IMG/VR virus record: IMGVR_UViG_3300020385_000066
Span: 1-22,516 of that record
From: a virus
DNA: 22,516 nucleotides
Direction: 5' to 3' (one strand)
In this document: piece by piece, positions 11,249-18,156 of the stretch
How the letters are laid out: every line of letters starts with the position of its first letter
Position numbering within the stretch: the first letter of the stretch is position 1
The notes under the pieces: generated by a model
The model's input: only the letters and a program-made list of their open reading frames with translations
What the model was told of the DNA's origin: nothing
Databases searched by the model: none
Translations under genes and position numbers: made by a program

Positions 11249-11538
11249 ACGGTTACTATTCTGTATTTAATCCCAGAGGTCAAAAGATTGCCGATTGCGG
11301 TTCTGAAAAAGATGCAGTTACTCTTCTTGGTATGAGGAACTGTAGATGGGAAGGACACTACTATTCGTTCATTCCATTACCTGGTAATATTATTGATATT
11401 TCTTCTGGCAAACAACTTCCAACCAAAGACATCGTTGTAAATATGGACGGTGGTGTTGGTGGTAGTTGGTACGAAGTAATAACTAAAGAATTCCCTCAAA
11501 ATTGCCAAGAACCATTTATCCCCGATTTTCATGACTAA
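11245..11538 (+). CDS. Hypothetical protein, 97 aa, TTG start
   Basis: Begins at TTG 11245, overlapping the gp41 stop, with GAGGGA (11231-11236) eight bases upstream; there is no ATG near this position. The N-terminus (NGYYSVFNPRGQKIADCG) is a beta-hairpin-like segment, followed by KDAVTLLGMRN and an aromatic-rich middle (EGHYYSFIPLPG). The tail is acidic and ends in FHD. It overlaps mazG by eight bases. I do not recognise a domain. Position in the gp41-mazG chain suggests co-expression with replication genes. Confidence 0.7.
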   Translation: MNGYYSVFNPRGQKIADCGSEKDAVTLLGMRNCRWEGHYYSFIPLPGNIIDISSGKQLPTKDIVVNMDGGVGGSWYEVITKEFPQNCQEPFIPDFHD

Positions 11539-11938
11539 AGTTGATACTGAAAAATACCTTGATTTTGTACATGGGGTAACCAGTCCTCCTAGCCTTGACT
11601 ATCCTATTCTTGCAACACGTCTAACTGAACTAGAAGTTAGTGGAACTAATGTTACTCAACTCCTGACTGCTGCCCTTGGACTATCTGCAGAAGCAGGTGA
11701 GTTCACTGAGGTTGTAAAGAAGATTATCTTCCAAGGAAAACCTTATAGCGAAGAGAATGTCTTTCACATGAAACGTGAACTGGGTGATATCTGTTGGTAT
11801 TTGGCACAGGCATGTATGGCACTTGATACTACTTTTGATGAAGTGATTGAGATGAACGTTGAGAAACTCAAGGCACGTTATCCTGGCGGTGAGTTTGATG
11901 TTCATAAGTCTGAAAACCGTGTGGAGGGAGACCTGTGA
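11531..11938 (+). CDS. mazG: MazG-type nucleotide pyrophosphohydrolase
   Basis: A 135-residue all-alpha MazG-family enzyme. The metal-binding signature is complete: GLSAEAGEFTEVVKK (Glu57 and Glu60 forming ExxE) and ELGDICWYLAQ (Glu83 and Asp86 forming ExxD). MazG splits nucleoside triphosphates to monophosphates and pyrophosphate. In cyanophages it was long suggested to lower (p)ppGpp, but the characterised cyanophage enzyme prefers dGTP and dCTP, which fits recycling of host-derived nucleotides. The start lies within the previous gene and has no ribosome-binding site, so coupling is likely; it overlaps the next gene by GTGA. Confidence 0.93.
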   Translation: MTKVDTEKYLDFVHGVTSPPSLDYPILATRLTELEVSGTNVTQLLTAALGLSAEAGEFTEVVKKIIFQGKPYSEENVFHMKRELGDICWYLAQACMALDTTFDEVIEMNVEKLKARYPGGEFDVHKSENRVEGDL

Positions 11939-12597: not shown

Positions 12598-12761
12598 AAC
12601 CAGTTGATCTATTATTATTAATTGGAGAACTGGAAGGTAGTTCAGCACACTGTAGAAAGTTAAACTTTTTAGAAGATGCTGCTACACTTGATGAGATGAA
12701 ACGGAAATACTATAAGATGTATTTCCGTCTTTCTAAGGAAGAAAGAAATAAGGGGAATTAG
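12594..12761 (+). CDS. Small hypothetical protein, 55 aa, ends inside the tRNA gene
   Basis: A TTG-start frame overlapping the previous stop (TTGA) with GGAGG (12583-12587) six bases upstream. The protein begins MKPVDLLLLIGELEGSSAHC and continues as a charged helix (DEMKRKYYKMYFRLSKEERNKGN). Its last three codons and TAG stop lie within the first ten bases of the tRNA-Ala gene. No known domain. The overlap and ribosome-binding site argue for a real gene, but the TTG start makes it less certain. Confidence 0.55.
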   Translation: MKPVDLLLLIGELEGSSAHCRKLNFLEDAATLDEMKRKYYKMYFRLSKEERNKGN

Positions 12762-12824
12762 CTCAGTTGGTAGAGCACCTGCTTTGCAAGCAGGCTGTCA
12801 GCGGTTCGAGTCCGCTATTCTCCA
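12752..12824 (+). tRNA. tRNA-Ala (anticodon TGC)
   Basis: A full cloverleaf of 73 bases. The acceptor GGGGAAT (12752-12758) pairs with ATTCTCC (12817-12823) and includes the G3:U70 pair that marks alanine tRNAs. The anticodon stem is CCTGC/GCAGG with loop TTTGCAA and anticodon TGC at 12785-12787; the T arm is AGCGG-TTCGAGT-CCGCT (12800-12816). The CCA end is not encoded. It reads GCA and, by wobble, other GCN codons. T4-like cyanophages often carry a few tRNAs to help translate AT-rich late genes. It sits at the boundary between replication and virion-type genes. Confidence 0.97.
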
Positions 12825-12830
12825 TAAATA
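12823..12830 (+). promoter_or_regulatory. Late-type promoter directly after tRNA
   Basis: CATAAATA, one base from the T4 late consensus TATAAATA and fitting the NATAAATA form reported for cyanophages. Its first two bases are the last two of the tRNA. The next ATG is 16 bases on, a short leader. Confidence 0.5.
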
Positions 12831-12845
12831 TTTGAAAAGAATAAA

Positions 12846-14318
12846 ATGGCAAAGCCACCAAAACCAAAAGCTACTTTATCTTCTGTTGAAGATTTTCTGT
12901 ACGAACTTGGTCCGGTAAGAGGAGATATAATTACATTTAAGGGAATAAAATTTCAAGTCACTAAATTTGAAAGAAAAAGACCTCCAACCTTAGAGATAAA
13001 CTTTGAATATCCAGGAAGTAAATCTTCTCTAAACAGTTTTAAGTCAGCTATATTTAAAGCGGTGAAAGGACATTTTGGTTCAGTAGATGTTCAATCAAAA
13101 GACTTTGGTTCTTATAAAGCATTATACATCCTTGCTGATAAAGCATTTCTTTACCTTGAGCCTAAGGACACTTCTGGAGGCGCTAAAGGAACTGTTCCTC
13201 CACAAATTCATGAAAAAGGCACAGCAGAAGTATTTACTAGAGCTCTGTCAAGTAGAAACCCATATATGTCAGAAGATGATCTGATTAAAGATACTAAAAT
13301 GCAAACTGAGTTGAAAAAAATTTTTGGATCTAAGTATGGGCATAGATTACCAGATTGGTTACATAGTTTTTATGAACAGCAGTCAGCGGCACTAAAGGAA
13401 TATAGTGGTCCTCAGTGGGAGGAATTTGTTTATGGTAAAGGTTCTTTTGTTGATTTTTTTGAAGACCATATGGACAAGTTGCATAGAGACTTGGAACCAG
13501 AACTTAAAGTTGGAAGGTATGAAAAGTGGAATCCATCTGATATATGGGCTGTAAAAAGAGGTAAGACGAAAGAGATAAAAGATAAATTGATAAAGGAGAT
13601 TGGAACACAAACGGTCTTACTAAAAGTCAATGCCATATTGATTAATCTGATGGAAAGTAATGATCTTGTTGGAATATCTCTTAAGAAAATAGACGCAAAA
13701 TCTTCCGGTAATATTAAATTATATAATGTTGATACATCGGATAAGTTGAAAGCCCTTAAATCCTATGCTCATATAGAACTTTATGATATGAATGATATTA
13801 GTTTTGAGCCTGACAATATTTTAATTTTAAAATCTGTTACCACGTATATTAGAATTGGACCTGGGGGAAAATATTTTATTGATATCACTAGGTCTGGCAA
13901 GAATCTTTCCTTTAATAGTCAAATCAAAGGAACTGCTGCACAGGGTGGACAAGCACCGATTGATTTAGTAGTTAAGATGTTGAAAGGAAATACCTTCGAT
14001 AAGAGTAATGCCACGTATCCTCAAGACGCTGATTCGTTTATGAAAGATGTGAATACGTATAAAAAAATGTATAAGGTAGTTTCTAAATATGCATCAAGTC
14101 GCTCTCAGAAAATAGATATAAATGATTGGATAGAAGGAGTGAAAACTCTTTATAAGAAAGATTCAAGAAATGCAATAGTTACTTTGATGCAGTTAAGTTT
14201 TTGGAATGATGCACTTAAGAACCATGCAAATAACCCTGAGTTTTGGACAGATCTCTTATATTATGGTATGAAAGTTACCTCTAAAGGTATGTTTGCTCCA
14301 CATGCAAAGATATCTTAA
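12846..14318 (+). CDS. Large late protein, possible PD-(D/E)xK-like core; paralogue of next gene
   Basis: A 490-residue protein, first of a virion-type block. An N-terminal part (to about residue 115) is beta-rich (DIITFKGIKFQVTKFERKRP). A helical stretch follows (PDWLHSFYEQQSAALKEY, about 169-186), then WNPSDIWAVKRGKTKEI (228-244) and DLVGISLKKI (273-282). The same order, P-[DE]-W...ALK-[KE]-Y, WNPxDI, LVGxSLKxI, occurs in the next gene, so the two are paralogues. Asp232 with Ser278-Leu-Lys280 resembles the D...(D/E)xK pattern of restriction-nuclease folds with Ser in place of the acid; this is a hypothesis. Both proteins end with a similar W..LYYG.K segment. Ribosome-binding site weak. Likely a virion or DNA-handling protein. 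Confidence 0.7.
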   Translation: MAKPPKPKATLSSVEDFLYELGPVRGDIITFKGIKFQVTKFERKRPPTLEINFEYPGSKSSLNSFKSAIFKAVKGHFGSVDVQSKDFGSYKALYILADKAFLYLEPKDTSGGAKGTVPPQIHEKGTAEVFTRALSSRNPYMSEDDLIKDTKMQTELKKIFGSKYGHRLPDWLHSFYEQQSAALKEYSGPQWEEFVYGKGSFVDFFEDHMDKLHRDLEPELKVGRYEKWNPSDIWAVKRGKTKEIKDKLIKEIGTQTVLLKVNAILINLMESNDLVGISLKKIDAKSSGNIKLYNVDTSDKLKALKSYAHIELYDMNDISFEPDNILILKSVTTYIRIGPGGKYFIDITRSGKNLSFNSQIKGTAAQGGQAPIDLVVKMLKGNTFDKSNATYPQDADSFMKDVNTYKKMYKVVSKYASSRSQKIDINDWIEGVKTLYKKDSRNAIVTLMQLSFWNDALKNHANNPEFWTDLLYYGMKVTSKGMFAPHAKIS

Positions 14319-14324
14319 TAAATA
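14317..14324 (+). promoter_or_regulatory. Possible late promoter (AATAAATA)
   Basis: AATAAATA spans the stop of the preceding gene, 14 bases before the next ATG. It fits the loose NATAAATA form of cyanophage late promoters, but such AT-rich words arise easily at TAA stops. Confidence 0.3.
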
Positions 14325-14337
14325 ATTATAAACCAAT

Positions 14338-15510
14338 ATGGCAACCAACGCTAAAGAAACTGCCAAACAAGAAAATGGTTCTAAAGTTTTCTTTGAGCAT
14401 GTTATTGAAAAGGGTAGAGAACCAACAGATAAAATGATGCTGGATGTATATGATGGGTATAGTCCTGAGTGGAGAGATACTTATCGCAAACAAACAGATG
14501 CTTTAAAAAAATATCTAGGATCTAATAGGGGATATGAATATTCCAGAGATTCTGGAGTTATGCCTTATATTGAAAATATTGCAAAAGTTAAATGTGGAGT
14601 ATCTGTTAAGGATCGTTGGAATCCTATGGATATAGTTTTGGTAAAGAAAAATAAGAAAAAAATTGTTGAAGGAACAATAAAAGAGATAACAAATATTGAT
14701 GGAATGACAAAAGACGCAAAATTGAATTTGCTTAATTCTTACATGAGGGAAAGTTTAAAGGAAAAGATTCTTGTGGGAGTTTCATTAAAGGCAATTTCAA
14801 AAACAAAAAAAACTGCTAACGCAGAAGTTGCTAATGCCGGTGGTAAGTCTGTTCCTACTAAAGTTGATATGGTTAAGGGGTCGTTAAAATGTACTTTAAC
14901 CCTTGGTAAAAAGAAACAATTTCTTTTTGATACTGGTGAACTTGGGTTTGATATGGAAACTGCTAAAGGTGGAAAAATACATGGACAGTCTAGAAACTTT
15001 CAATATTCTAAAGATAGAAATTTAGTACAAACTGACTTGACACCAAAAGGAAAAGATGCTGGTGCTAAACTTGGAAAAGTTTCTAGTGTTGCATTAGATT
15101 CTTTCCTTGGTGGTATGGGATTGAATCGTCCTACATCAGCAGCAAAAGATAAAAATATCCCTCCCGTGGGTAAGTGGACTGATATGGAAAAAAGATATTG
15201 GATTGATTTATATAATAAACTAAATTCTTCAGGAATGGTTGATTTTGGTGAAGTTGCTGTGTATGAGAATAATAAAAAAGTTGCTGATGGTTTTGAGGCA
15301 GTTTTAGATTATGCAATCATATATGAGATGAGGAAAGCAGATAGAAGTTCTGCCGGAAGATTTTCTTCTAAGTTAGTTGCTATGGAGTGGGCAAATATCT
15401 GGGTCACTATATCAAAGAAGGGTAAATCAAAAGAATGGTGTACTGCTCTTTACTATGGTGCTAAAAAAGAATTTGGTTCTTCTAATGGACCATTTTTAAA
15501 AATTTACTAA
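14338..15510 (+). CDS. Late protein with the same core as the preceding gene
   Basis: A 390-residue protein that lacks its neighbour's N-terminal domain but shares the core: PEWRDTYRKQTDALKKY (43-59), RWNPMDIVLVKKNKKKIVEG (93-112) and ILVGVSLKAIS (144-154). After this come a beta-rich stretch (GSLKCTLTLGKKKQFLFDTG) and a C-terminal part ending in EWCTALYYGAKK and GPFLKIY, matching the neighbour's end. Asp98 and Lys151 would be the candidate nuclease-like residues. There is no ribosome-binding site before ATG 14338. The conserved pair in a late block suggests packaged or DNA-interacting proteins, perhaps forming a heteromer; not known. Confidence 0.7.
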   Translation: MATNAKETAKQENGSKVFFEHVIEKGREPTDKMMLDVYDGYSPEWRDTYRKQTDALKKYLGSNRGYEYSRDSGVMPYIENIAKVKCGVSVKDRWNPMDIVLVKKNKKKIVEGTIKEITNIDGMTKDAKLNLLNSYMRESLKEKILVGVSLKAISKTKKTANAEVANAGGKSVPTKVDMVKGSLKCTLTLGKKKQFLFDTGELGFDMETAKGGKIHGQSRNFQYSKDRNLVQTDLTPKGKDAGAKLGKVSSVALDSFLGGMGLNRPTSAAKDKNIPPVGKWTDMEKRYWIDLYNKLNSSGMVDFGEVAVYENNKKVADGFEAVLDYAIIYEMRKADRSSAGRFSSKLVAMEWANIWVTISKKGKSKEWCTALYYGAKKEFGSSNGPFLKIY

Positions 15511-15536: not shown

Positions 15537-16763
15537 ATGAAAAGTTTCTTTCAATTTTTAGGTGAGGCAAGATCAGAAGCATCACTTAAAGCACAGAAGT
15601 TAAACCTAAAGAGTGATGGGCACGGTGGTTGGTTAGACTCCCGTGGTAAGTTTGTTGCAACTACCGAAGACGGTAAGTTAAAATTTGTTGATAAGAAGAA
15701 AGTAAATGATAAAGAAGAAGAAGGTGGTGGTAGAAAACCAGCACAGCAACCTGTTACTGCCAAACCTGTTGCTAAACCAGAAGAGCAACCTAAAGCAAAG
15801 GCAAAGACTAGTGAACCCGAAGATGGAGATAGTGAAGAGTCAACCGGCACTCTAACTGTCGTATTTGGTAGATTTAATCCTCCTACTGTTGGGCACGAAA
15901 AACTTTTAAAGTCTGCTGATCGTATGGCAGAGGGTGATGACTTTAAAGTATATCCTTCTAGGACACAGGATCCAAAGAAGAATCCACTTGATGCTGATAT
16001 GAAAGTATCTTATATGAAGAAGATGTTCTCTGACTATAAAGAGAACATTGTCAATGATCCTAATATGAGATCTATTTTTGATGTATTAGTTGCTGCAAAT
16101 GAAGATGGATATGACAACATTAATATTGTTGTAGGTGCTGATCGTCAGGCAGAGTTTGAGAACCTGGCACAGAAATATAATGGTGAGTTATATGAATTTA
16201 ATCAAATACGTGTAATTTCTGCTGGTGCTAGAGATGCAGAAGCAGAAGGTGTTGAAGGTATGTCTGCTTCTAAGATGAGAAAGGCAGTAGCAGAAGATGA
16301 CTTTGCCACATTCCGTAGAGGCACACCTAAGACATTAGATGATGGCGATACACAAGCACTATTTGATGCTGTCCGTTCTGGTATGGGTATTAAGAAGAAG
16401 AAAGATGTTGCAGAGATGTGGCAGATTGCTCCTAAGTTTGATCACAAAGGTTTACGTGAGCAGTATGTTAACGATAAGATTTACAGAATTGGTGATATTG
16501 TAGAGAACCTGAATACTGGTTTGATTGGTAGAATTATTCGCAGAGGAACTAATCATCTAATCTGTCTCACTAAGGAAGATTATATGTTTAAGTCTTGGAT
16601 TAGAGATGTGATGGAAGCAGTTGTAAACTACTCAGGACCATCAGGTGTTCCTTCCGACCAGAGACTTATAGGTACAGATTCTCATAGAGAATATGCTCAG
16701 AGAATGACAGGGACAACTGCTATACGAAATTTCATAAATAAGTATAAGAAAAAGAAGTCGTAG
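15537..16763 (+). CDS. Nucleotidyltransferase with internal-head-protein-like N-terminus
   Basis: A 408-residue multidomain protein. Residues 1-11 (MKSFFQFLGEA) closely resemble the capsid-targeting sequence of T4 internal proteins (MKTYQEFIAEA), which the prohead protease cuts after the Glu. Residues about 18-54 hold a small Gly/Trp module (DGHGGWLDSRGKFVATTEDG), then a Pro/Lys/Glu linker to about 104. Residues 106-285 form an HxGH-type nucleotidyltransferase of the NMN/pantetheine adenylyltransferase kind: VVFGRFNPPTVGH (108-120), VVGADRQ (198-204) and GMSASKMRKA (241-250, matching the ISSTxxR motif). A C-terminal beta-barrel-like part follows (NTGLIGRIIRRGTNHLICLT). The substrate is not readable; NAD synthesis is one candidate. 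No ribosome-binding site. Confidence 0.8.
   Translation: MKSFFQFLGEARSEASLKAQKLNLKSDGHGGWLDSRGKFVATTEDGKLKFVDKKKVNDKEEEGGGRKPAQQPVTAKPVAKPEEQPKAKAKTSEPEDGDSEESTGTLTVVFGRFNPPTVGHEKLLKSADRMAEGDDFKVYPSRTQDPKKNPLDADMKVSYMKKMFSDYKENIVNDPNMRSIFDVLVAANEDGYDNINIVVGADRQAEFENLAQKYNGELYEFNQIRVISAGARDAEAEGVEGMSASKMRKAVAEDDFATFRRGTPKTLDDGDTQALFDAVRSGMGIKKKKDVAEMWQIAPKFDHKGLREQYVNDKIYRIGDIVENLNTGLIGRIIRRGTNHLICLTKEDYMFKSWIRDVMEAVVNYSGPSGVPSDQRLIGTDSHREYAQRMTGTTAIRNFINKYKKKKS
16733..16740 (+). promoter_or_regulatory. Possible late promoter (CATAAATA)
   Basis: CATAAATA within the last codons of the nucleotidyltransferase gene, 30 bases before the next ATG; right spacing for a late promoter but only one imperfect motif supports it. 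Confidence 0.35.
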
Positions 16764-16770
16764 TATCCCA

Positions 16771-18156
16771 ATGTCTGAAATTCATTTGAGTGATCTCTCG
16801 AAAATTTATACCAAACAGATTGCAGAGAAAAAAGACGATACGTATCTTGAACCTGATATGAAAAAGCGTCAAGAAAATAATGAGAAGGCCCGCAAGGAAC
16901 TTGCTAAGGGTCCTCAAATGAAAAACCCAGCTTTTAAGGAAGCACTTGACCCTGTAGGTCAGGAAGATGCTGATGTAGATAACGACGGTGATGTTGATAA
17001 GTCTGACAAGTATCTTAGTAAGCGTCGTAAGGCAATCGCCAAAGCGATGAAGAAGAAAATGTCAGAAGACTATAAAGTGCTTCCTAAAGAGAAGATGGCA
17101 CGTCAGTCTAATAAAGCATATGATAAAGAGCAGAAAGCAGTCTCTGCTGGTGATGAAAAAGAAACAAACAAGCAGATGCAGCGCAGAATTGCAATGCAGA
17201 ATCCTGCTGGTCGTAAGGCACAACTTGCAAAAGTTAAGACTGAGTCTTTTTCTAACTGGAGAACTGACCTGATTGAAGTTGCTCCTACTACGGACGATGA
17301 AGAATCAAAAATTAAAGAAAAGAAGGTCAATAATAAAATTGTACTCAACCCCAAACTTGGTGAAGAAGTTGTATCTGAACTAGGTGGAACTATGATTGAG
17401 ATGGTTGAGTATGATGAGTTTGATGGAATGGTTGAGGGTGTATACTTTGAACTTCAAGAAGAAGGATATGTTGAAGGTGATATTGAGGAAGCACTTGAGT
17501 GGGTATTGACCGAGGCAAAAGTTACTTATGGTTCTGATACTGAGTCACCTAAGCAACAGATGATGAAGAAAGCAAAGGGTCGCTTGAGATTCCTTGGCAG
17601 AAAGGTTGGTGGAAAGATGTCATTTGCTAAGAATAAAGCAGGTATGGCATCTGCTCAGGCACAAGTTGCTGCTTACAATAAGGCAAGAGAAGCAAAACAA
17701 TCTGCTTCTGACACTGCTAGAAGAGTTAAAAAGTCTGCTATTGATACTTCTAAGAATGCAAAGAAAGGTTTAAAGAGTAAGATTAAGAGTGCTGCAGAAA
17801 AAGTTGCTGCTCGTATGAGTGAGGAAACTGAATCTGACCCAAAAGAAAAGCAAATGCTTTCTAAGAAGAGGCAGATGATGATGAAGCAACAAATGCTTGA
17901 CAAGCAAAGACTACAAGCACAACAACAGGGCAAGTTGCCTTCTGGTCATAGAACTGAACAGAAAGAAGAAATGACTGCCTTTGAGAAAGTAAAAGCAGAC
18001 ATTATCAAAAAACACGGAAAGAATGCTATTGTAGGTGCTCCTAAAAATAAGGTGGATCACGCTAAAATCAATTCTGCTAAAGCAAGTGCCAGTAAACCGA
18101 ATAAGCGTGAGCAAGAGTCCAGTGGTCGTTACACTGGAGGATACGCAGGAGATTAA
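16771..18156 (+). CDS. Lysine-rich low-complexity late protein with EF-hand-like loop
   Basis: A 461-residue, very Lys/Ala/Met/Gln-rich protein with little hydrophobic core. Residues 66-79 (DADVDNDGDVDKSD) match a calcium-binding EF-hand/dockerin-type loop (DxDxDG...D). Residues 158-170 (ESFSNWRTDLIEV) form an aromatic-acidic motif. A folded-looking acidic stretch at about 195-250 (ELGGTMIEMVEYDEFDGMVEG) precedes long basic helices (about 262-345 and 360-386, MLSKKRQMMMKQQM) that could contact DNA. The end is Gly/Ser-rich. Composition and position fit an internal head or core protein that packs with DNA, but this is inference. No ribosome-binding site before ATG 16771. Confidence 0.65.
   Translation: MSEIHLSDLSKIYTKQIAEKKDDTYLEPDMKKRQENNEKARKELAKGPQMKNPAFKEALDPVGQEDADVDNDGDVDKSDKYLSKRRKAIAKAMKKKMSEDYKVLPKEKMARQSNKAYDKEQKAVSAGDEKETNKQMQRRIAMQNPAGRKAQLAKVKTESFSNWRTDLIEVAPTTDDEESKIKEKKVNNKIVLNPKLGEEVVSELGGTMIEMVEYDEFDGMVEGVYFELQEEGYVEGDIEEALEWVLTEAKVTYGSDTESPKQQMMKKAKGRLRFLGRKVGGKMSFAKNKAGMASAQAQVAAYNKAREAKQSASDTARRVKKSAIDTSKNAKKGLKSKIKSAAEKVAARMSEETESDPKEKQMLSKKRQMMMKQQMLDKQRLQAQQQGKLPSGHRTEQKEEMTAFEKVKADIIKKHGKNAIVGAPKNKVDHAKINSAKASASKPNKREQESSGRYTGGYAGD

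Follow-up and report, generated by a model that had tools for sequence, protein, structure and literature searches.

The internal head proteins of phage T4 (IPI-III and Alt) are made late, packaged in the head and ejected, and T4-type internal head proteins carry an N-terminal capsid-targeting sequence with aromatic residues at positions 4 and 7 and L/I-x-E at 8-10. According to a 2010 review, cyanomyoviruses are without denA, ndd and denB, so that their degradation of host DNA is either less efficient or follows a route not yet described (PMC2984593). Among restriction enzymes, the CCGG family follows the pattern PDx21-53Kx12-13E, in which the lysine stays in place and the acid is relocated (PMC4652773; PMC551604). 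T4-like marine cyanophages also have a protein family, phrog_1462 (T4-GC 419 in cyanophage annotation), that is annotated as being of unknown function. Here we compare two adjacent members of this family, g1 and g2, with these systems.

The window, by which we mean the whole 22.5 kb stretch of DNA analysed, belongs to a T4-like marine cyanophage that is closest, among isolates, to Synechococcus phages such as Bellamy and S-SM2. Among the genes along it are, in order, hsp20, purine genes, gp43, uvsX, gp41, mazG (11531-11938), tRNA-Ala, the g1 and g2 pair, a cytidylyltransferase and scaffold-like genes. On the same (+) strand as mazG lie g1 (12846-14318; 490 residues), g2 (14338-15510; 390 residues), the cytidylyltransferase/NMNAT-like gene that follows the pair at the T4-GC 190 position (15537-16763) and a co-located late gene with scaffold/internal-head-like repeats (16771-18156), whose S-SCSM1 counterpart is labelled a virion protein. 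This last gene includes DADVDNDGDVDKSD, which resembles calcium-binding EF-hand/dockerin loops and has comparable stretches in Bellamy gp171 and S-SCSM1 gp280. The tRNA-Ala (TGC; 12752-12824) lies directly 5′ of g1, and a tRNA-Ala occupies the same slot in Bellamy and S-SCSM1. Elsewhere in the window, positions 1755-2768 encode a ParB-like / DUF6551 protein whose family matches are weak.

The two open reading frames are as the first-pass annotation described them, and the motifs and spacings that it listed for both are correct: P-[DE]-W (P169-D-W171 in g1, P43-E-W45 in g2), ALK-[KE]-Y (residues 182-186 and 55-59), WNPxDI (228-233 and 94-99), LVGxSLKxI (274-282 and 145-153) and a C-terminal W..LYYG.K (467-476 and 367-376), with 48 residues from Asp to Lys in g1 (D232-K280) and 53 in g2 (D98-K151). 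Before the shared core, g1 has an N-terminal alpha/beta domain (~10-114) that g2 is without, the extra part being ~111 residues long, where about 115 had been estimated. That the two are tandem paralogues, as had been proposed, is borne out by BLASTP (30% identity over 134 aa, E=3e-8), by profile matches of both to phrog_1462 (g1, 1.7e-48 over residues 57-490; g2, 3.4e-106 over residues 1-390) and by iterative searches that unite them with more than 260 relatives, and on these three grounds the homology is not due to chance. All 66 of the 66 aligned relatives match phrog_1462 as well.

The two proteins represent different forms of the family: g2 is the common form, with 72-78% identity to proteins of P-SSM4, P-RSM4 and S-RIM2, and g1 is a rarer form whose nearest record in the phage collection searched is at most ~38% identical and whose metagenomic relatives reach 81-84% identity. 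Candidate bacterial homologues came down to two MAG contigs whose gene content looks viral. In a bacterial MAG, a contig of phage-like character (L170:293-9230) encodes several adjacent proteins that all start with MDxFDLxKYL-[AST]-E, which may be a capsid-targeting signal. In S-SKS1 the phrog_1462 gene (L002:6992-7968) is unannotated and split across two overlapping ORFs, and may be frameshifted.

The position of the pair, between mazG (or gp41) upstream and the cytidylyltransferase downstream, is a recurrent slot. It was found with both borders in 236 contigs and is occupied by phrog_1462, phrog_2496 or phrog_22045, single or paired, with or without a DUF6267 gene; the contigs were gathered through these same three families, so that the counts are no measure of family frequency, and one common slot is still evident. 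The three families have no detectable sequence similarity to one another when compared. In phrog_2496 the invariant residues are E111, G213-D214 and S228-x-K230 (D214-x13-S-L-K), and in phrog_22045 they are G7xxFE11, EPKTD86 and S99-M-K101, with 12 residues between D86 and S-M-K. A fourth family, first encountered in S-SZBM1 and located between mazG and DUF6267, has a conserved D-x13-S-V-K and was not retrieved by searches with the other three; its loci include L259:6671-8008 (minus strand) and L378-L385. D...SxK is thus common to all four slot families. Homology among them was considered and set aside: hhalign aligned only the GISLK segment of phrog_1462 with phrog_2496 (probability 7%) and gave nothing useful for phrog_1462 with phrog_22045, and the families therefore cannot be called homologous.

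Pairing in this slot takes several forms. Twenty-three pairs join a divergent with a standard phrog_1462 gene and eight, the window included, a standard with a g2-type gene, while mixed pairs comprise 12 of phrog_1462 with phrog_22045 and two with phrog_2496. Within the g1 clade (support 1.0), L224, which is closely related to g1, is paired with a phrog_22045 gene in the position that g2 takes in the window. The slot thus looks like a two-gene unit with an exchangeable partner, and the recurrence of this arrangement fits the heteromer that had been suggested for g1 and g2. In loci other than the window, the DUF6267 protein next to the slot (T4-GC 71; L007:8252-9178, L171:6840-8081) has invariant K-x-D-G and E-G and a nearly invariant K-x-V-D-R, and a PDB profile search with it yielded no match. 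We take these three motifs to be like those of nucleotidyltransferases and ligases.

Late-promoter motifs precede both genes, in keeping with the late block to which they had been assigned. The octamer CATAAATA (12823-12830, + strand) lies ~15 nt before the g1 start codon, and AATAAATA (14317-14324, + strand) overlaps the stop codon of g1 and lies 13 nt ahead of the start codon of g2. The T4 late promoter is TATAAATA, the first base of which is weakly conserved in other T4-like phages, S-PM2 among them (PMC1524935), and ATAAATA stands directly upstream of both g1 and g2. Across loci, the 80 nt upstream of the gene contain ATAAATA in 108/240 phrog_1462 genes (45%), 13/19 phrog_2496 genes, 18/39 phrog_22045 genes and 84/96 scaffold genes, as compared with 0/154 gp41 genes, 1/183 mazG genes and 2.7% of random stretches.

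A link to the virion, also proposed in the first-pass annotation, finds support in one isolate: S-SCSM1 gp282, which matches phrog_1462 at 3.9e-66, is labelled 'virion protein'. The S-SCSM1 virions were CsCl-purified and analysed by mass spectrometry, and their authors allow that some of the proteins may have co-purified (PMC9602691). We considered S-SZBM1 as a negative case for virion presence and rejected it, its slot gene being not phrog_1462 but a member of the fourth family; in the portion of the S-SZBM1 virion proteome available to us, that slot-family protein is not listed. Counterparts of the neighbouring cytidylyltransferase were detected in virions of S-SM1, S-SCSM1, S-SZBM1 and S-CREM2. 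In the window this protein starts with MKSFFQFLGE (codons at 15537-15566, + strand), which has aromatic residues at positions 4 and 7 and L-x-E at 8-10 and so matches the T4 capsid-targeting sequence in its length, aromatic residues 4 and 7 and L/I-x-E cleavage motif (PMC9026906). The same geometry is found in 132/207 cytidylyltransferases (p=4e-113) and 15/109 DUF6267 proteins, as against 13/1176 other ORFs, and in the literature searched we found no description of such a sequence in a cyanophage cytidylyltransferase. It is absent from g1 and g2 and not enriched across the phrog_1462 family (4/252, p=0.35), and is clear in three distant members of the family (L171, L261 and L336).

Conservation across the family suggests a functional site. 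In a set of 264 unique relatives from viral contigs (Neff ~123 at 80% identity), which are otherwise down to ~20% identical, E123, P230, D232, S278, L279, K280, N294 and G368 of g1 are 100% invariant, and W171, W228, N262 and K488 nearly so; the N-terminal domain of g1 contributes no invariant position. The Asp and Lys singled out at first are therefore both fully conserved, and a Glu and an Asn can be added to them. In g1 the core residues are E123, W228-N-P230-x-D232, N262, G276-x-S278-L-K280, N294, G368, P485 and K488, and in g2 E12, W94-N-P96-x-D98, N133, G147-x-S149-L-K151, N166 and G246. Even very divergent second copies (for example L104 and L105) retain the same invariant residues. The resulting signature is E...PxD-x47/52-K, in which Ser stands where an acid is usual and an Asn follows the Lys by 14-15 residues; from the alignment, this pattern fits an active or ligand-binding site. 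The motif had been called 'degenerate', a description that does not hold: no relative departs from the Ser at the acid position, which is therefore a fixed family trait, not decay.

The predicted structures place these residues in an order that is suggestive of a nuclease. AlphaFold2 models are confident for g1 (mean pLDDT 89.4) and fair for g2 (82.3). In the g1 model, E123 is within helix 119-135, the invariant P230-x-D232 comes directly before strand 233-237, much as PD-(D/E)xK enzymes have a conserved aspartate, mostly preceded by proline, where their second core strand begins (the identity of the strand being taken from the predicted model), and the invariant K280 is at the end of predicted strand 274-279, which SLK closes and which is a candidate for the third core strand, where such enzymes have their catalytic lysine; the g2 model agrees in the order of elements. 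This succession of elements in the models is compatible with a PD-(D/E)xK core, an alpha-beta-beta-beta-alpha-beta fold with Asp and Lys adjacent, without demonstrating one. The acid two residues before the lysine is absent, Ser278 occupying that position in 100% of relatives. For the proposed nuclease-like fold, no significant match to a solved PD-(D/E)xK structure was found: Foldseek searches of the PDB with both models gave nothing at E<=0.001, with no recognised PD-(D/E)xK restriction enzyme among the matches listed. The best nuclease row came from VIA-align with g2 residues 1-168, the part that contains Glu, Asp and SLK, for which the top row was the Cas4-family nuclease CtACE1 (PDB 9iab; weak Z=3.2, rmsd 5.1 over 111 residues, 4% identity), yet this is a lead and no assignment. 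With g1, the N-terminal domain filled the match list, so that the core was barely tested.

Searches of Pfam, PADLOC and PDB sequences with single proteins, profiles and consensus sequences returned no nuclease family, and the sub-threshold Pfam rows all look like chance. A mean-field contact analysis appeared to give antiparallel pairing near D232/K280, which we dropped as evidence because the pairs of this high diagonal mostly involve invariant columns, an artefact.

It is conceivable, if doubtful, that the fold is unrelated to PD-(D/E)xK and that E/PxD/SLK/N forms some other active or ligand site, the likeness being convergent or accidental. Such a reading would account for the lack of a significant structural match to any nuclease and for the modelled SLK strand, which leads into another strand (290-293) and not into a helix. 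It would also suit the N-terminal domain of g1, whose nearest VIA-align rows are nucleotidyltransferase folds (Z 7.5 across 92 residues, below the tool's trust level), but that domain is without invariant residues and missing from g2. PD-(D/E)xK is favoured by the succession of a helix with Glu, a strand with Asp and a strand with Lys, and by the canonical short spacing of the partner families.

A second alternative accepts the fold and questions the chemistry. Ser and Asn replace both acid options of active PD-(D/E)xK and CCGG sites, and do so in every relative, so that the site could be non-catalytic; inactive DNA binding is therefore a serious rival, although we consider it unlikely. Here g1 and g2 would be catalytically inactive PD-(D/E)xK-fold relatives that bind DNA, coating or capping either the packaged genome at its ends or the head-tail joint and standing in for T4 gp2 in the protection of DNA ends, and their late expression and the virion association of one family member would be in line with this. 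However, a Glu, Asp, Lys and Asn kept without exception in such divergent sequences are more typical of catalysis than of a structural role alone, and swapping among D...SxK families suggests an activity and no fixed structural contact. That g1 and g2 are instead ordinary structural or scaffold-associated head proteins, present in virions for assembly only and with no enzymatic role, would agree with late expression beside scaffold-like genes and detection among virion proteins, but is very improbable given that the family is not universal in cyanophages and is replaceable by unrelated families, and that its charged invariant residues are clustered in motifs.

We favour the view, which has perhaps an even chance of being right, that g1 and g2 together are a late, head-packaged, PD-(D/E)xK-like, two-subunit DNA-acting enzyme delivered with the DNA. 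The evidence (paralogy, the invariance of the site, the late-promoter motifs and one relative labelled a virion protein) supports late proteins with an invariant PD-(D/E)xK-like residue set, probably present in the virion and often encoded by paired genes; the fold, the catalysis, the location of g1 and g2 themselves in the head, the heteromer and the substrate are inferred. The putative site would have Glu on the first core helix, PxD before a strand, SLK ending a following strand and Ser in place of the second acid, its unusual composition extending to the Asn 14-15 residues after the Lys. Most likely the pair would act as a metal-dependent nuclease or nickase of two subunits, synthesised late and taken into the head alongside the neighbouring cytidylyltransferase. 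At the next infection it would be delivered with the DNA and may then act on host or incoming DNA. Such early action would be the most attractive role for g1 and g2 because cyanomyoviruses are without denA, ndd and denB; action on DNA ends, as envisaged in the first-pass annotation, would be speculation.

If this enzyme is active, g1 and g2 would define a PD-(D/E)xK-like site in which Ser and Asn take the acid positions, and even if they are inactive, the analysis identifies a head-cargo locus of nuclease-like proteins, DUF6267 and cytidylyltransferase. The phrog_1462 family, being late and virion-associated, with an invariant nuclease-like site and one exchangeable slot retained throughout the group, is a concrete candidate for host-DNA degradation by cyanophages. 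A more far-reaching version, which we put forward tentatively and think improbable as a whole, is that the heads of T4-like cyanophages carry a partner-swapping, two-subunit nuclease with a new type of active site (E...PxD...SLK...N), which would be delivered with the DNA and with nucleotidyl-transfer enzymes and take over early host-DNA processing in phages without the T4 genes denA, ndd and denB.

Set beside the known systems, g1 and g2 resemble the CCGG-type arrangement in sequence while falling outside its definition. Like NgoMIV, Cfr10I and Bse634I, they have 47 and 52 residues separating PxD from Lys, which is within PDx21-53K, lack an acid at the second residue ahead of the Lys and have a conserved polar residue ~14 after it. 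In the CCGG enzymes, however, that residue is Glu, where g1 and g2 have an invariant Asn (x13-14), so that the full CCGG pattern is not present; there is no sequence or significant structural match between the two groups, and g1 and g2 are late phage genes with no methylase directly adjoining. The likeness to the T4 internal head proteins lies in the T4-like capsid-targeting sequence, which is carried here by the adjoining cytidylyltransferase and a few distant phrog_1462 members, whereas g1 and g2 are without it and have no known sequence relation to those proteins. Closest of all are the phrog_1462 / T4-GC 419 proteins P-SSM4 gp153, P-RSM4 gp189, P-HM2 gp161 and S-SCSM1 gp282, which are direct homologues and likewise follow mazG, most isolates having one copy where the window has two.
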